NCBI GenBank assembly: GCA_037974965.1
Contig: JBBPFI010000005.1
Coordinates: 2,046,001 to 2,110,000 of the forward strand
Direction: 5' to 3'
Length of the DNA: 64,000 nucleotides
Source of the DNA: Dacryopinax spathularia
Taxonomy: Eukaryota; Basidiomycota; Dacrymycetes; Dacrymycetales; Dacrymycetaceae
Made by a program: the position numbers and the translations under genes. The notes below the pieces were generated by a model, which saw only the letters and a program-made list of their open reading frames with translations, made no database searches and was not told the origin of the DNA. Every line of letters begins with the position of its first letter. The stretch's first letter is position 1. Below are positions 15,680 to 57,023 of the stretch, piece by piece.

Positions 15680-17951
15680 CTACTTGGAGGAAGGCACAAA
15701 CCTCAAGGACACCTTGCCTCCTTGACTCAGCAAACTCCCGCTATCTGCCAGCAGGTCGTGCGCCCCAACCGGTGTCCAGCCACCGATGGTAATCCTCCCG
15801 TTCGTCCCGGGCGGCGTATCCAACTCCACCACCAAACTTCCATTCCCCATCGTCCAGCTCGCCCCGAACCACCCGAGAGCAGTCTCGAACCCTCCCTCAA
15901 CATGTTCCAACCCCGAGAAATGCGGCCCAAAAGACCAGTCTCTCCCCGAGGGCGAAGTGACTTGCAGGCCGAGGACGTAGTACGTCAGCGCGGAAGTGGG
16001 TCCGCTGGACCAACCATGGGAGTGGGAGGTGTAGGCAGGGTCGTAGTTGTATCCTCTGTAGGAACGGTAGCTGTACGGAATAATGTATATCAGTAATTCG
16101 TCTCTCTTCCTTGTTTGGAGGGGAGACGTACTAGAGCGAACCGTTTGCGGTGAAGCCTTCGAGTAAGGTGGACTGGACTGAGAGATTGGTGTTGACCATG
16201 TAACCCCATGTGCGGCGCAGGAGGTCCATGGCGATACTGTCGTCGCCAGCTTCGAAGTGCGCCATCAACTGCAGCGCTTATTAGCAGCCATGCAGCCAGC
16301 CTTCAGATATTCAGTTCTCACCTCGAAGCCGGATATGAACGGCGAAATCGTATCAGGCAGCTCAGGCAGGATCGGCCCCAGGTCGTTCCAGTTTTCCGTC
16401 AGCTTCCGGCTGATCGATGCTGTCTGTGAGCTGTTCAGGGTGATATTGTACAGAACAGCGAGGGAGTTGGCGTCCTGCGGATGGAGCGTGGTGGTCTCGT
16501 TGTCCCGGTACAGACCAGCATCTACGTCCCATAGCAGGTCGTTGTACGTGTACTTCAGGGCTGTGGCGTTCTTCGACCAGGAGGAGGCGAGCGAGGTGTC
16601 GTTCAAGTATCCGGCTAGATCGACGCTGTTCGTCAGCACCTGGACCAGCTGTCAGGCGGGTTTGCGGGAAGAAACGGAAATGCTGACCTTGTACAAAAGA
16701 ACGTTGGCTTCGGAGTTATGTCCTCCCGGTCCGAGTCTCGCCCAGTCTCGCAATCCCGTCTGGTTCATCAATCCACTAGAATCGACCTTCCCCTCCAAAT
16801 ACGCAACCGCCTTGGTATAGTTCGTCCATACCGTCTGCAACCAGTCGAGATCTCCCGAGTACAGGTAGTAGTTATGGGCGCCTATGAGCGTCCATGCGTG
16901 ATATGTGTCGGATCCGGTTTGCGAAAGGGGCGGGCCGGATTCGGGCGAGGCGCCGGTGTTCGGGTCCTGCGCTGCGAACATGGTTGACAATGCGTTTTTG
17001 GTAGGGAGGAGGTCGTTCGTTGATACAAACTGCGTTGGTACTGCGATTCCCATGTCGCCTGCATAGCGATCAGCGGCAGTCATACGAGAATCCATCTGGT
17101 CGTACCTGGCCAAACAGCTCGATCTCTCTTCGCTCCATCGACGATGATTGGTCCAGCAACTCCGAGTGTAGCGTTGTTCGCCCATCCTAGCAACCCTTAA
17201 GCACAAAATGGTTTCTCTCACACATCTAGCTCACCTGGCGAAGCTACGAAGGGCACTTGACGACCGGTGTCCAGAGGAACGGTATTCGTCTGAACCGTAT
17301 ATGCTCCAGCATACCAGATCCGGTTTAACAGCTCATCATTGCTGTAGAAGTAGCCGGAGTAATTCCTCATGTGGGTCCAATGTGGCATGAACGAGATAGA
17401 GACAGAGACGTTTGAGAACGACACTGGCACATCGCCGTTGTTGACGAGTGTAAGATAGCGGAAACCACCACGCAGCCATTCGGACGGTTGCGTCCACAGA
17501 CCGACGGGCAGCGGTTGAGGGAGGTCATACGCGCCGTCATACGACATGTTTGCGGACGGGTAGGAAGAATCATCAGAGATCGGGCCAATGAAGATTGGCG
17601 ATTCTGTGAACGTCATAGAGAGCGCAGCGCCAGCTCTGGATTGCCCAATGTCAAGGGTGACCAGGCCACCAACCTATGTTCATGAGCCTAGCTCTTCCCA
17701 AATGAGGTCATCCATACCTCTTTGCCAAAGTCCAGAGCGACCCAGTCACCCTTGTTTTGCAATGTCGCGGTCGCCGACTCTGCCGCGAGGTTCCCAGTGC
17801 CGAGAACATCGCCATTTGTTCGTGCTACGCTCACTGGACGAAGGACGCGAGAGGCAGGCGCAAGGTTAAACGCATCCCATGGACCAGCAGGTGCCGTCGC
17901 TCTTAGTAGAATCAGCCAGGCAGCAAAGAAAGATAGTGCCTTGCCCAGCAT
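15680..17951 (-). CDS. Secreted GH78-like (alpha-L-rhamnosidase type) six-hairpin glycosidase
   Basis: The ATG at 17949-17951 opens a signal peptide (MLGKALSFFAAWLILLRAT). The N-terminal beta-rich part includes FGKEV, GGLVTLDIGQSRAGAALS and EWLRGGFRYLTLVN. The helical barrel follows, with MRNYSGYFYSNDELLNRIWYAG, QTNTVPLDTGRQ, then PIIVDGAKRDRAVWPGDMG, which matches the general-acid region of fungal GH78-type enzymes. Further on come GSDTYHAWTLIGAHNYYLYSG, DWARLGPGGHNSEAN and the C-terminal SHSHGWSSGPTSALTYYVLG. Many N-glycosylation sites (NYS, NAT, NQT, NET, NSS) fit secretion. About eight short introns are present. The likely substrate is alpha-L-rhamnosyl or a related sugar on plant or microbial glycans, but specificity cannot be read. 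The length of roughly 650 residues is normal for the fungal type. Confidence 0.8.
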
Positions 17952-24500: not shown

Positions 24501-25532
24501 AGCGGGAGGACTGGGCGTTCATGTCTGTTTCGTTTGTCCGCCTTAGGGCGGAGCCGTGGCGGAGCAGACTGTTCGCAAGGGCGTCAGCATGTGTTCCACG
24601 AGCGGCCAGAAGCTGAGACAGAAGGAGAGCAAGAGGGAGAGAGGGAGGGAAAGACAGAATAGAGAGAGAGAGAGAGAGAGAGAGAGAAGGACGCACTTCA
24701 ACACATCCCCCACACTCCGCACAGAAACCTCCTTCAACCCCTCCCACCTAATCCTCCCCTCCCTATCCTCCCTAATCAGCACCTCCCGCCTCCCCTCCCC
24801 CTCCTCAACAAGCAAATCAATAAGGTCCTCATTATACAGCTCCACATAGGCGACTTTCGCCTCGAAGCCCGCTCCTCCCCCTCCATTCCCTGCCCCTCCT
24901 CCTCCCTTAGCCGGGTCAGGCAAGCGGCTGAAAATCGCATGCAGAGCGCGGGGGATTATACCCGAGCTGGGTGGGGGTTGGGAGCCGATAGACGGGGGAG
25001 GCAGGTCAGGTCCCGTCATGGAATACGTCTTCCCCGAACTGGTCTGGCCATAAGCGAGTATAGTGCAGTTGAACCCCTCCAAAAACCTCTGCACAAGCGG
25101 GTCTGCCGCTAAGCTGTAGACTTCGGCTTGGGAGGAGGAAGGGCCGAGAACGCGGTCGAACGTGAAAGATTGTTTTTGACCGCCTGGCACTGCTGGGCCT
25201 GCTGGGGTTAGGCCGGAGGGAGCGGGGCCGGAGAGGGAGGAGATTGTTGATGTTGATGCGCTGGATTGGTGCGATGAGCTGGTGGAGGAGGGGTCGACGA
25301 GGACTGTTGTGCTCGAGGAAGGGAGGACGGCGGTGCGCTGGAAACGGGTGGGGATGGTGGCGTCTTGCGAGGTTGGGGGGCGGATGCGGACGGCTGCGAG
25401 TAGGCGTTAGTATTGGAGTAGGGTGGTGAGCAGGCAGGAGGAGAGAGCGGAGAATGGGGATGGGGACGGGAGGGAGGGGGACGTACCGACTTGCACGCTC
25501 GTCGCTGTAGATTTGTCTTTCTTGTCCGCCAT
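18524..25532 (-). CDS. Kinesin-4 family motor with very long coiled-coil tail
   Basis: The ATG at 25530-25532 starts MADKKDKS, followed by VQVAVRIRPP and [21 protein letters not shown]. The P-loop reads [13 protein letters not shown] (around 25030-25050). Next come [73 protein letters not shown] and [17 protein letters not shown]. The last motifs and the neck [14 protein letters not shown] identify kinesin-4 (KIF4/KIF21), plus-end motors that control microtubule length in spindles or cargo transport. The stalk is about 1,500 residues of heptads rich in E, R, A and Q, ending RKSKFVCM with the stop at 18524. The whole protein is about 2,000 residues, longer than most KIF4 proteins. Oddities are a disordered insert of about 115 residues between the two switch motifs and one intron of about 440 bases (near 22,771-23,212) where others are about 60-150. 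Confidence 0.88.
24661..24687. repeat. (AG)n microsatellite in a kinesin intron
   Basis: About 13 AG units lie in a purine-rich stretch (CT on the coding strand) between the exon ending RSVGDVLK and the exon starting SLLRHGS. On the coding strand it forms part of the polypyrimidine tract of that intron. Confidence 0.9.
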
Positions 25533-26786
25533 CTCGTCCGTCGTCGTCTTCGTCGAGTTCGAGTAGAGTAGGAGGTAAAGAGCGAGTGAAGGGGGTTATG
25601 ATACTGATATCAAAGGTGTTCGAGGTGAGACGCTACGAGGTGATGGTGGGGTGGTGGTGGGGTGGTGGTGAGAGGGCGGTGAAGGACGGTGTATGCGTGA
25701 AAAGTGGAATCGCGGATGGAGGTATCACTCTTGGGTATCAGCACTCCCAGTCCTCTCTCTCTCGCAGTCCTCTGCTTGACGTCTATGTACGACGAGGGAG
25801 GGTCGTCGTTGTCGAGCACAAAGGACGCGAACCCGAAGTCGAACCCGAGCGAGCGTCGACGAGGAAGAGCGGGGAGGTGAGGAGGTGAGGAAGAAGAGGA
25901 AGGGGCGTGAGTAAAGGGCGCGTCGTTGTGCTGCGCTCTGTTGTGTTGTGAGCCCGTACCCGCGCGGATAAGGAAGCGTAGAAGGAAGGAAGGGAAAGAA
26001 GCTGAACCTCCTCAGAAGCAGAGAAGGAGCGCTGGTCGTCGGGGAAGCGTCCACGCTGTCGGCGTGCGAACGGGACCCTTTCGCTTTCGCTCTTTCCCTG
26101 CTCTTCTCTTTTGCTCAAGCTCGTTGGTTGCTTTGCTTTGAGCAACGTAAAAAGCGCGAGCTGACGGCAGCACACGCAAAATCCCTCGCCGATGTGATAT
26201 CCAAACAACGCCCCTCCTCCCCCGTGGCGTCAGCCCCAGACGCCGGACGCGCCGACGGGTGTGATATGCGCGAAATGATAGATGCTCCCGCTCTGATCCG
26301 AAGAAGGGACCGTCGTCATGCACCTGCGCGCGCTTGAAAGCGGGGTTGCTAGGGGACAAAAAATTATTGTCATTCAGGGGATTTTGGGGTGCGATGATTA
26401 TCATTCTACCTGTTGGTAATTGATTATTGTCTATGCTCCAGCTGGAGGAGTTCTCAACGCTGCACGATCTGTGTATGCACAGACGCGTCGACGCGTACAA
26501 CCGAGCGGAGGAATGTGATCTCGCAAGAGTAAGACAATCACTGGAATGTTTAGACAGTTTTAGGGTCTCCTTTGCCCATCGAGAGTGAGATCGGTCTTCT
26601 GCTGAATTCGTGGGCGTATATTTTCTTTTTGCTCTTATACGCGCTCGTCTGCCTCTTTTTTCTTGTGGCTGCTTGGTTTTGGTCGTCCATCATCCCCCGC
26701 TCGCCCTCCTCCTCCCGCTCCCAATCCTTCGCCCGCGAGCTACGAAAACTACAAGACCCTCCCTATTGTCCTGTACACCCGGCTGG
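25533..26786. other. Kinesin promoter and region before the palindrome array
   Basis: The first part is the 5' region of the kinesin gene. A plus-strand open frame from 26572 encodes a strongly hydrophobic stretch (YIFFLLLYALVCLFFLVAAWF) but it has no ATG before residue 80, so I do not call a gene. If it is real it would need an upstream spliced start exon. No other feature was found. Confidence 0.45.
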
Positions 26787-28490
26787 TCATGCCCAGCAGC
26801 TCCAGTCTCACCTTATGAGCAAACGCTCATATCAACAAAGTGTGATAGCTGAAGCTGCTGCGTACGTCACCCCCCCCCCCCCCCCCCCCCCACCCCACGC
26901 CTCCGCACTCGTACCCGTTCTTCCACTAGTGGGCTCACCAGCCTCTCGTCAGCTCAGCGTCGGGTGTTGCTCTCATACGCAGGAGTCATTCCCCTGCCTG
27001 ATATGAGCAGCGCTCATATCTGATGAAGCTGAGAACTGGCTCCTGCGTAGCTGGGTCGTTACCCCTACCCCCGATCATCTTCTCCCTCTCTGACGCCTGG
27101 ACCCTGGTCAACGGCTTACCTCTAGCGCCGACTGTCATACCCAGCAAGCCCCGCCACTGGCATATGCGAGCAAAGCTCGTATGCATCCTGGGGATAATAC
27201 AGGTCTTGCTGGGTATTTCCGTCCTTCGCGCTCTCTTGTATGCAAGCCGCGCACTAGCCTGTCAGGTGCTGCTCTCCTACGCAGGAGGTACGCCATAATC
27301 GCTATGAGCACCGCTCATATGGCGATCGTTGTTGCAGCTCCTACGTAGGTGGGTCGCTACCTTAAATCTTCTGTCGATCTGTCATCTGATAGAAGGCTTG
27401 ACTCTAGTGGCGACTGTCATACCCAGCAAGCCCTGCCCCTGGCATATGCGAGCAAAGCTCGTATGCATCCTCGGGATAATACAGGTCTTGCTGGGTATTT
27501 CCGTCGTTGGCTCGCTCCTCCCATCCTTCGCGCTGCTTGGAAACAGGCGGCACTCTAGCTTGTGAGGTGCTGCTCTCCTACGTCGGAATCCTTCCCTGTG
27601 GTCGATATGAGCGGTGCTCGTATACCATCAAGGGTTGTGGGCGCTCCTACGTAGTTGGGTCGCTACCCCGGATCACCTTGTTCTTTACTGGTCGTCCGGT
27701 CGACGGCTTACCTCCAGCGCCGACTGTCATACCCAGCAAGCCCTGGCCCTGGCATATGCGAGCAAAGCTCGTATGCATCTTCGGGATAATACAGGTCTTG
27801 CTGGGTATTTCCGTCGTTGGCTCGCTTCTCCCATCCTTCGCGCTACTTGGAAACAGGCGGCTCTCTAGCTTGTGAGGTGCTGCTCTCCTACGTCGGAGTC
27901 CTACCCTGTGGTCGATATGAGCGCTGCTCGTATACCATCAAGGGTCGTGAGCGCTCCTGCGTAGGTGGGTCGCTACCCGTGAACTGCTTCTCCCGGTGCC
28001 GTCTGGTCAAGAGTCTGACTCTGACGCTGCTCTCCTTTCCAGCAACGACCATCCCGACGCTCCACGGACGCTCTCGCCCCTTGAACGGAAACGGAAACGA
28101 CTGTCGTTCCCAGCGGCTGCTCGTGGATGGCCGTGAGTGATGCTCACGTTGGCTTCCATTTGAACGCTGTGCTGCTGGGCACCTCGGTCACCATGCCATA
28201 TCCGCATCTTCTCCCTGTACGCTCGCTGACCCATCCATGATTGTATGCACCGGCAGGACTGTCAAACTCAGCGGGTCTGATCCCCTACTTGTGCAGCCTC
28301 CCGTCTCATCCATAGGTTGAGGAGACACCTGCTGGGTTTCACGGCGTGCTCGCACTTCGAGTATCGAACACCCCCGAGCTCCCAGCACGTCCCATAGCGG
28401 CCCTCATGACACCCAGCACCTGCCATCTGTGCATATGCGAGCACCCGATTCGGCATATTGCGCCATACGCATAACGTGCTGGGTCTCCGA
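26787..28490. repeat. Tandem array of nested palindromes (about 282/310-base period)
   Basis: Three near-copies of one module, each exactly 78 bases, lie at 27138-27215, 27420-27497 and 27730-27807. Each has outer arms TACCCAGCAAG and CTTGCTGGGTA around an inner hairpin with the loop AAA (GCGAGC AAA GCTCGT). A second module alternates with it, with outer arms like TACGCAGGAG / CTCCTGCGTA around an inner TATGAGC-n3-GCTCATA hairpin. Copies of that module are centred near 27010, 27312, 27617 and 27922. The second and third copies (27420-27660 and 27730-27970) differ at only about ten sites, so duplication is recent. Diverged, partly inverted copies of the first module lie at about 28330-28388 and 28411-28484, and a rough one at 26787-26865. 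The period of 310 is not a multiple of three, so the open frames inside are not a tandem coding repeat. No transposase is near. Confidence 0.85.
26870..26891. repeat. Poly-C tract of 22 bases
   Basis: An uninterrupted run of 22 C residues lies just inside the left part of the palindrome array. Such G/C homopolymers are unstable in replication and could form quadruplex or i-motif structures. It may also be imprecisely assembled. Confidence 0.9.
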
Positions 28491-29929
28491 CGCAGCGCTC
28501 CTTTTCTCCTACATAGGCTTGTCTTTTCCCTCAAACATCTTAACTTGGATCTTCTTCCGGGCGGACGTGTCACTCAGCGCCTTTTCCCTCCTGCACATGA
28601 GACTACCTCTCTCATAATACTTGTGCGTTATCGGAAGAAGCGAAGGCGCTCGGTTTCACGCTGTCGTCCCGGCTTGCTCTCGCTCGCTTGATCGGGACTC
28701 CTCGCCTTCAAAGACAGGGGTTCATCCCAAGTCCCCGCAGTGCCCTCTCCATCTTCTGAACGCGCCGCAATCATTGATGGAGTCTCGTACACTCCGCGGA
28801 CGCTTGAGATCATCCTCCGTCGTTTTCTGGCATCTCGATCGGCCGTCTTCCCTTGACAAGGACCCTCGTTCCTTGGGGAGGAGGACTGTGAAACGCAGTA
28901 GCTGTGAGTTGGCCGCTATGAACTCGCTTCACATACATCGGTGATTATCTCGCTGCTGCCTTTCACTTTGACCGCCATACCCCGCTGCGTGCTTCTTAGC
29001 CATTCAGCGTCGTACGACTGCTTGACCGCCTCCCTCCCGGCGCGCTCGCATACACGGGGGACGGCAGCTGCCGACACCCCTTATAAGCCCTGTTCATGGA
29101 ATGATGGACCGTCCAGTCGCGGATCTCGCCCGCTGCGGTGTGTCTTGTCCCCACTAACGGGCGGACTGCCCCCTCGCGACTTGGGGTGATACCAAGCGCC
29201 TGTCAACTCGGCCCATGAGCTTTCGCATCCTCATCTCTGCTGGATTAAAGGCGCCGCTTGGCATTACCCTGACGCCGCCCAACCTTCCGTATCCTTCCCA
29301 GCTTGAATCTTCTTCAGACAAGATTGCGCCCGTTTATGCTCTGCATCGGACCCCTGGTGTTACTTTCAGGCTCAGATCCGATACCCAGCGGATCTTTTCG
29401 GCCGAGATTGAGAAACCTTCCTCATTGGATCGGTATGAGAAACGCTGGGTGTTCGACCTGACGCTTGCTCGTCTGCTTTTCTCTCCAACGGGCACTTCCA
29501 CTCGAGGAGATCTTGTCATACCAGGCGTCTGCAATTTGAGGCCTGATAATCGTTTTCTCATCCTGGCCAGGGAATTGACAGCCGCTTTATATGATCTGAG
29601 TCTGCCCTATATCGTTGTCGTGCAGGTAGCCTTCAACGCTTTGCCTGACAATTTCTTGTTAGGCTTAGTCTTCCTTCTAGCGTTCGTCTCATCACCAAAA
29701 TCTGAACGCGAGATGGTGGAACCCCAGCTGCACCGGGGTTGGCAAGACGTCCATATACTGTTGACGTAGCTTTGTCAATATCTCACAGCTGGGCGTCCAT
29801 CATGTGCACCTCCAAATAATATTCGCCTCCATAAAAGTGCAAACGTGTCCTGGATCTCAACGAACTGTGTGGGGAGCAATTAGCGTACTTCGCAGGTCTG
29901 TACCACTCTCGCCGGCCCTTCTGGTAATA
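28491..29929. other. Gene-poor region between the array and Ipk1
   Basis: The longest frame is 184 codons starting at an ATG at 29215 (MSFRILISAGLKAPLG...), with a hydrophobic C-terminal stretch (YIVVVQVAFNAL, LLGLVFLLAFVSS). It matches no family I know and shows no obvious introns, unlike its neighbours. It may be a chance frame in diverged repeat DNA or a young gene. The last 150 bases are the Ipk1 promoter. Confidence 0.4.
29215..29769 (+). CDS. Hypothetical 184-residue ORF, doubtful
   Basis: This single uninterrupted frame begins MSFRILISAGLK and ends HILLT. A middle part is rich in charged and Arg residues (FRLRSDTQRIF, SLDRYEKRWVFDLTLARLL), and a hydrophobic segment follows near residue 140-165 that could cross a membrane. 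No known domain was recognised, and the codon use is not clearly gene-like. It sits between the palindrome array and Ipk1. I list it because of its length and ATG start. A random frame in GC-moderate DNA is an equal possibility. Confidence 0.2.
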   Translation: MSFRILISAGLKAPLGITLTPPNLPYPSQLESSSDKIAPVYALHRTPGVTFRLRSDTQRIFSAEIEKPSSLDRYEKRWVFDLTLARLLFSPTGTSTRGDLVIPGVCNLRPDNRFLILARELTAALYDLSLPYIVVVQVAFNALPDNFLLGLVFLLAFVSSPKSEREMVEPQLHRGWQDVHILLT

Positions 29930-33701: not shown

Positions 33702-34417
33702 ACAAATGGACTGCATTGTGGCTGTATTACTGGGTTTCAAGAATTTAGAGCGAGCTAATAGATGGACGGAATTAACATACTGACAGATGCCTTTCAAGAT
33801 GCTTGGCGCGAAAACCGATCAGACGCGAGTGTGGGCTGAAACGCTCTGCTCTCTGATATCGAGCAGAAGACAGTACCAGCTGCATCAAGAGAATTTGACC
33901 GTGCATGGAGCACCTTCACCCAATGTGAATATGTGTGAAAGTGCTCCATGCATGTCTTTTTTTTGCAGCTAGACTTGATCCCTCTTGTAATGCATGAAAT
34001 GATGTGCTACACAAAAAGACCTCATCCAGCAGTACCTTGTGATTTGGCAACCACCTCCAGCCTTTGGTTTGCCATCCGAAAGAGATCAGGATGGTACAAC
34101 TAGAGTAATACCATTGCCTGGCACCCTCTTCTGGCGCAGTCCCATACAATCCCTCAACCTCATATCGCAGTTTGCCAAAAAAGATCGATGTGGGAATAAT
34201 GTGGTATTGCAATAAAAAATAACTAACAGAAACACCTGTGAACAAAAAAGGAGGACAAGCGAACATGCAGGGGTACTAGAAAGCATTAGTTATGCATTAC
34301 AGTGCAATGTCATTGAAAGGTTTGTAACAAGAACGTCTGCTCACCGCCCTCAGGGAGTACGGAAGAATGAGTCCAATGAACAGCTTGAAAGGAAGAAGGC
34401 GGGTAGGATGTACGAGG
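33702..34417. other. Convergent spacer between transporter and Cdc4 gene
   Basis: The stops of two genes face each other across 716 bases. The interval is AT-richer than its surroundings and contains the long hairpin listed separately. No coding frame is supported. Confidence 0.5.
33901..33953. repeat. Long hairpin-forming inverted repeat
   Basis: Arms at 33903-33919 and 33935-33951 are complementary at 16 of 17 positions around a 15-base loop. Flanking bases extend the pairing by one T-A and one G-T. It lies about 200 bases past the transporter stop. It could be a 3' RNA structure, a small-RNA precursor or a foldback remnant. Confidence 0.8.
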
Positions 34418-56749: not shown

Positions 56750-57023
56750 CGTTGTAATGCTGTTGTTGGCGTTCAGGGCGTTGGTTGAATGAACGCCGTG
56801 GGGGGAACGTATGGACGACCGAAACGGTCCCTTATGAGGCACGCTCACCCCGCATGGCGGCCAATCAACCAACGTCATTTCGGTTTTGTAACGGTGGCCA
56901 CCACAAATCCAAGACTAGAGTGATAATCGACGCAGCATCGTTCGTATCCAAGCACAACCAGTTCACTACAATGGTACATCTAGCTGTACAATGACTCCAT
57001 GGCGCACCCATCCATCCTTCGGC

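Follow-up and report, generated by a model that had tools for sequence, protein, structure and literature searches.

The genome of Dacryopinax spathularia contains, at 26.78-29.46 kb of a 64-kb window (C5:2046001-2110000; the assembly comprises 29.2 Mb in 24 contigs), an array of about 15 tandemly duplicated, related hairpins of ~95 nucleotides (nt) each. The 11 clear hairpins are related to one another, and their pairing is maintained as the sequence changes. It is likely that the array is maintained by selection on a fold, and there is a somewhat better than even chance that the selected fold acts as RNA. Judged from its sequence, the array looks non-coding.

The hairpins come in two main types, A and B (Table 1). 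The 78-base module that an earlier note on this DNA had placed at 27138, 27420, and 27730 is present there exactly, with arms identical across the three copies, and a repeat search recovers the reported spacings of 282 and 310 bases, as well as a recent 299-base duplication with 91% identity. The second nested-hairpin module of that note also exists, but both of its arms are exact only in the first copy. Instead of being two different double-hairpin modules, A and B align as a single family, with 11 clear members in the alignment (26781-28494) and four weak ones, up to 29458, found with a covariance model; the alternation of the two types, previously described as strict, is limited to a central run of seven copies. 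All 11 clear modules can be aligned over both outer arms and, except for Y and Z, share an inner hairpin marked by GAGC/GCTC or a near variant of it. The centers of these 11 modules are 134 to 219 bases apart, 7 of the 10 intervals being within 147 to 165.

The covariance model was trained on the 11 clear members and run unfiltered over the 64-kb window. It recovers all of its training members, as it necessarily must, and, with lower scores, 10 of the same modules on the reverse strand. Directly 3' of the clear modules, it finds four untrained matches on the + strand (W3, W5, W1, and W6, in descending order of score). These are individually weak, with E values from 0.016 to 1.4 in 64 kb; they represent four of the top six non-array hits by bit score and lie within 1 kb after Z, the other two hits being at 17073 and 53274 (10.8 bits). 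The palindrome at 28765, between W1 and W3, is missed by the model. An alignment that includes the W members puts the arms in the wrong place and is not used for any count. A sequence pattern derived from the modules gives six hits, which are not independent evidence because the pattern was drawn from the modules themselves, W3 included.

For the 11 members, RNAalifold predicts a 12-pair outer stem and part of the inner one, with compensated changes in 10 of 18 pairs. The input alignment was built without structure, and the 20-pair structure used for the counts was written by hand after this prediction. Of its cells, 90.7% are paired, and 9 of the 20 pairs have changed on both sides, a number that is reached by 5 of 500 shuffles. 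Cells with a double change number 27, where 10.7 are expected, and the score for covariation, at 0.416, compares with 0.199; none of the 500 shuffles is as high in either measure, although kinship among the members inflates such tests. Because the A copies and the B3/B4 pair are near-duplicates, the counts were repeated for the 8 members that are left when the redundant copies are dropped: 90.0% of the cells are paired, 10 of 19 pairs are doubly changed (2 of 500 shuffles), and the score is again matched by 0 of 500 shuffles. Sliding one side by 1 to 3 columns lowers the pairing to 21-49% of the cells, in a control that is biased towards the structure because the structure was drawn from the same consensus. 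Such joint change of the two sides of a hairpin is expected if the folded shape, probably that of an RNA, matters.

Folding of each unit on both strands, a check proposed in the earlier note, gives energy z scores of -2.47 or below in 10 of the 11 modules on the + strand and in 8 of the 11 on the - strand (200 dinucleotide shuffles each); on the + strand, 1 of 120 random windows scores as low (60 shuffles each). Ten stretches centered between modules have z scores from -2.24 to +1.54. Among the seven downstream stretches, z on the + strand is -2.5 or lower for W1, W5, and W6 and above that for W2, W3, W4, and W7. The best 22-nt arm on the + strand has 17 to 21 of its 22 bases paired in 17 of 18 stretches, in a weak test, since 22.5% of the control windows also reach at least 17. 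The exception is W4 (29020-29140), a candidate proposed from the pitch, which fails, with a z score of +1.22 on the + strand and 7 of 22 bases paired in its best arm. W7 (29510-29585), seen by eye only, has a z score of -1.15 on the + strand and is not claimed as a member. Both W4 and W7 are counted among the 18 stretches of the strand tallies.

The A type is far less changed than most of the adjoining spacers. The pairwise identities of the A copies are 95.8, 94.8, and 96.9%, as compared with 53, 59, and 64% for the spacers before A (B to A) and 50, 50, and 95% for those after it (A to B), the last value being that of the recent duplication. Five of the six A-flanking spacer comparisons are therefore within 50-64%. 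The B modules, except for the recent pair, are 66-72% identical. Within the recent duplication, 3 of the 96 bases of A differ, against 24 of the 203 bases in the rest (Fisher p 0.016), but the A-B spacer differs at only 3 of 61 positions and B itself at 7 of 94.

Rfam searches show no match at E values up to 10 over 26000-29400 and none at the gathering thresholds over the whole window. The reading given in the earlier note is borne out in part: the array is a structured repeat that lacks an Rfam match and retains its pairing by compensating changes, in the reduced set as well as in the full one. ARAGORN finds no tRNA, scans for bacterial-type promoters and terminators give nothing useful, and a pattern scan meant for viral contigs is far too loose, at no fewer than 119 stretches, to be informative. 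The trinucleotide ACA is found 3' of some modules on the - strand, but neither the spacing nor the remaining boxes, checked by eye at the module ends, agree with an H/ACA or C/D small nucleolar RNA. The search for further copies suggested in the earlier note was made in the organism's own genome at the DNA level; it is heuristic, with the best candidates alone scored, and finds the array at one locus only. This lack of further copies speaks against a dispersed transposon or satellite. The exact inner core occurs three times in the genome, always within the array. The ACCCAGC...GCTGGGT outer-core pattern occurs at 10 places, 5 in the array and 5 scattered, with 9 for a reversed control. One of the outside places, C4:750944-751007, is ~0.5 kb from a Dicer_dimer match (C4:750130-750438) and probably within or beside that gene, which is likely due to chance.

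The same genome has matches to the Argonaute PIWI domain (PF02171) at four places and to the Dicer_dimer domain (PF03368) at two, all of them matches only, with the genes unassembled, as well as ten RNA-dependent RNA polymerase matches on C6, C12, and C18. On account of these matches, a cluster of microRNA (miRNA)-like hairpins is favored, with a scaffold RNA in second place, and the matches combined with the + strand arm pairing make a hairpin cluster that feeds Dicer the simplest mechanism. The 26.78-29.46 kb region would then be one non-coding RNA locus with a + strand transcript, each hairpin of which would fold independently. Dicer would cut these hairpins into small RNAs, and Argonaute might take up the products, in the manner of a polycistronic miRNA-like cluster. 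The whole chain, from the + strand transcript through Dicer to Argonaute, is put forward tentatively and has well under an even chance of being correct.

The strand evidence is mixed, and a + strand RNA is somewhat more likely. In 13 of the 18 stretches, the best 22-nt arm is more fully paired on the + strand; in 2 it is less so, and in 3 the two strands are equal. Merging recent duplicates gives 10 to 2; in control windows, it is better on the + strand in 51 of 120 and worse in 66 of 120. In-arm transitions overall comprise 49 G-U and 25 A-C, and the pyrimidine-rich stretch ahead of the first hairpin also favors the + strand. Several observations weigh against the + strand. Pair-flanked mismatches are nearly even (18 G-U versus 14 A-C), single-stretch energies are lower on the + strand in 10 cases and on the - strand in 8 (mean z, -3.02 versus -2.76), and the whole 26700-29600 region folds more stably on the - strand (-1170.7 versus -1090.2 kcal/mol). 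A Dicer-fed cluster has against it that the apical hairpin is conserved and that no target enrichment is visible for the one arm sequence tested.

The nearest rival is a long non-coding RNA that is structured and works as an intact molecule: its hairpins would not be Dicer precursors but sites at which multiple copies of a single RNA-binding protein assemble. This is a possible but doubtful reading. It would fit the retention of the outer stem and the GAGC/GCTC apical hairpin in both A and B types, the conservation of the A modules through loop and stems, and the 2.9-kb fold, in which 12 of 16 modules on the + strand and 13 of 16 on the - strand are mainly self-paired; Y and Z, without the common inner hairpin, are harder to accommodate. 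Among long non-coding RNAs, Xist A-repeats and roX have multiple hairpins, in the form of repeated stem-loops that bind proteins. The array resembles them in having short stem-loops repeated within what would be one transcript; it differs in host, pitch, and fold, and no Rfam relation of the array was found. DNA cruciforms and neutral template switching are less likely. Palindromes that extrude cruciforms or are bound in double-stranded form, at a near-nucleosome pitch, for example, in an origin, in an element of recombination or chromatin, or in an ancient dyad-symmetric satellite, could explain the module spacing, the strong pairing on both strands with the 10 to 8 split in energies, and the 18 to 14 ratio of pair-flanked mismatches. 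However, the best arm favors the + strand in 13 of 15 untied stretches, a single 2.7-kb locus was found, flanked by two ordinary genes, and the large internal loops should be unfavorable to cruciforms, leaving this explanation unlikely. Of the four roles proposed in the earlier note, the strongest are still those of a structured RNA array and of a double-stranded RNA source, whereas the DNA-level ones are less favored.

Dyad-symmetric satellite DNA shares with the array tandem repeats of near-nucleosome length with inverted repeats, whereas the array is one 2.7-kb locus, as far as found, with covarying stems and between ordinary genes. Selfish or neutral tandem duplication, in which functionless hairpins are upheld by template switching during replication, is quite improbable. 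Tandem duplication is evident here, and template switching, according to PMC8794818, is able to create and mend stems and to yield multi-base compensating changes. This process leaves unexplained the 95-97% identity of A against 50-64% in five of the six spacer comparisons, unless only the hairpins undergo conversion. The least probable reading, with very little chance of being right, takes the modules for repeated exons or for a portion of a protein-coding gene, the left arm holding a splice-like CAG and the right arm GT. By eye, CAG is found in most left arms and GT in most right ones, but TCG replaces CAG in B3 and B4, and the A-type GTATTT is a weak splice donor by consensus. For two open frames of the array, a word-limited search of 5.8 billion proteins turned up no homologue, and none of four has a Pfam match over the cut-off: three have no match, and the fourth has one chance-level hit (E 0.079). 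This reading is disfavored.

Apart from the housekeeping families, the structured non-coding RNAs known from basidiomycetes are few. The array might represent a kind of fungal non-coding RNA gene that is new as a class: one locus with a primary transcript of ~15 paralogous covarying hairpins, which has grown in tandem, is either diced into related small RNAs or left intact to serve as a multivalent scaffold for proteins, and has no relative among the families searched; the chances of this are somewhat below even. Polycistronic miRNA clusters and the precursors of fungal miRNA-like RNAs (milRNAs) are similar in that several related hairpins of the same orientation are found in one intergenic stretch, with ~22-nt arms well paired and a genome with Dicer and Argonaute matches. 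The array differs in its ~15 related hairpins and in the conserved apical hairpin of A. According to PMC6145500, six predicted milRNAs of Coprinopsis are grouped closely on one contig, and milR-12c, another entry among its milRNAs, matches ribosomal DNA. The terms cluster, tandem, and polycistron are absent from the main text of the fungal re-analysis PMC9757828, and no comparable array was met in the portions examined of these two milRNA papers. Among the titles listed by a narrow search of the open-access literature, none concerns tandemly arrayed hairpins in Dacrymycetes. With many diverged covarying paralogues, the locus is an internal record of hairpin RNA evolution and gives small-RNA sequencing and deletion experiments in a Dacrymycete a well-defined target.

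Table 1. Hairpin modules and associated features of the array (positions in the window; z, folding-energy z score)
Feature	Position	Strand	Evidence
B0, first member	26781..26871	+	alignment; model 56.6 bits (training-set member); z -5.76
B1	26966..27055	+	repeat search, alignment, model; z -3.28
A1, 78-base core 27138-27215	27128..27223	+	repeat search, alignment, model; z -3.88
B2	27266..27354	+	repeat search, alignment, model; z -2.84
A2, core 27420-27497	27410..27505	+	repeat search, alignment, model; z -5.18
B3	27567..27660	+	repeat search, alignment, model; z -2.48
A3, core 27730-27807	27720..27815	+	repeat search, alignment, model; z -5.02
B4	27877..27970	+	repeat search, alignment, model; z -3.57
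X	28098..28187	+	alignment, model; z -3.21
Y, clear outer stem, inner hairpin other than the common one	28257..28344	+	alignment, model; z -2.47 (+), -0.23 (-)
Z, exact outer stem, differing inner part	28403..28494	+	alignment, model, pattern search; z -1.49
W1, weak, left out of model training	28561..28654	+	10.7 bits, E 1.2 in 64 kb; z -3.24
W2, possible member, missed by model	28715..28815	+	palindrome score 36.4 at 28765; z -1.55 (+), -3.11 (-)
W3, left out of model training	28882..28969	+	18.2 bits, E 0.016 in 64 kb; z -2.25
W5, weak, left out of model training	29180..29270	+	12.6 bits, E 0.39; z -2.5
W6, weak, left out of model training; exact ACCCAGC...GCTGGGT outer core	29372..29458	+	10.4 bits, E 1.4; z -5.72
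Latest duplication, 27381-27679 / 27691-27989, 91% identity	27381..27989	+	repeat search
Pyrimidine-rich stretch, immediately 5' of first hairpin	26600..26780	+	would be compatible with a promoter region for a + transcript

The array is located in an intergenic gap flanked by two genes recognized by Pfam matches, one for a kinesin on the - strand and one for an inositol-pentakisphosphate 2-kinase on the + strand. The start codon of the kinesin gene (Pfam Kinesin match) is near 25532 in a by-eye reading. Just before the first hairpin, the pyrimidine fraction at 26650-26749 is 0.72, in the top 1.3% of the 100-nt stretches of the window. A run of ~20 C residues at 26870-26892, directly 3' of the first hairpin, is possibly assembly-sensitive.

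Elsewhere in the window, an Mg-dependent phosphatase has its best named hits, among 120 listed of 884, in Calocera cornea (78% identity) and C. viscosa (76%), both members of the class Dacrymycetes according to a taxonomy look-up; the remaining listed hits, leaving aside a metagenome protein with 79% identity, are 35-49% identical. These identities point to a fungus that is probably a Dacrymycete but neither of the two Calocera species. With a score of 51.9, the top palindrome in a scan of the window is an isolated near-perfect hairpin at 33860-33990 with two nested inverted repeats and a minimum free energy (MFE) of -49.8 on the + strand and -56.9 on the - strand. It lies 3' of a WD-repeat/F-box-like gene (a by-eye label) on the - strand, has no second copy in a DNA search, and looks like a single miRNA precursor-like hairpin. 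Another long stable hairpin is found at 56770-56885 (MFE -56.3 on the + strand and -52.2 on the - strand), just 3' of the Mg-dependent phosphatase gene.
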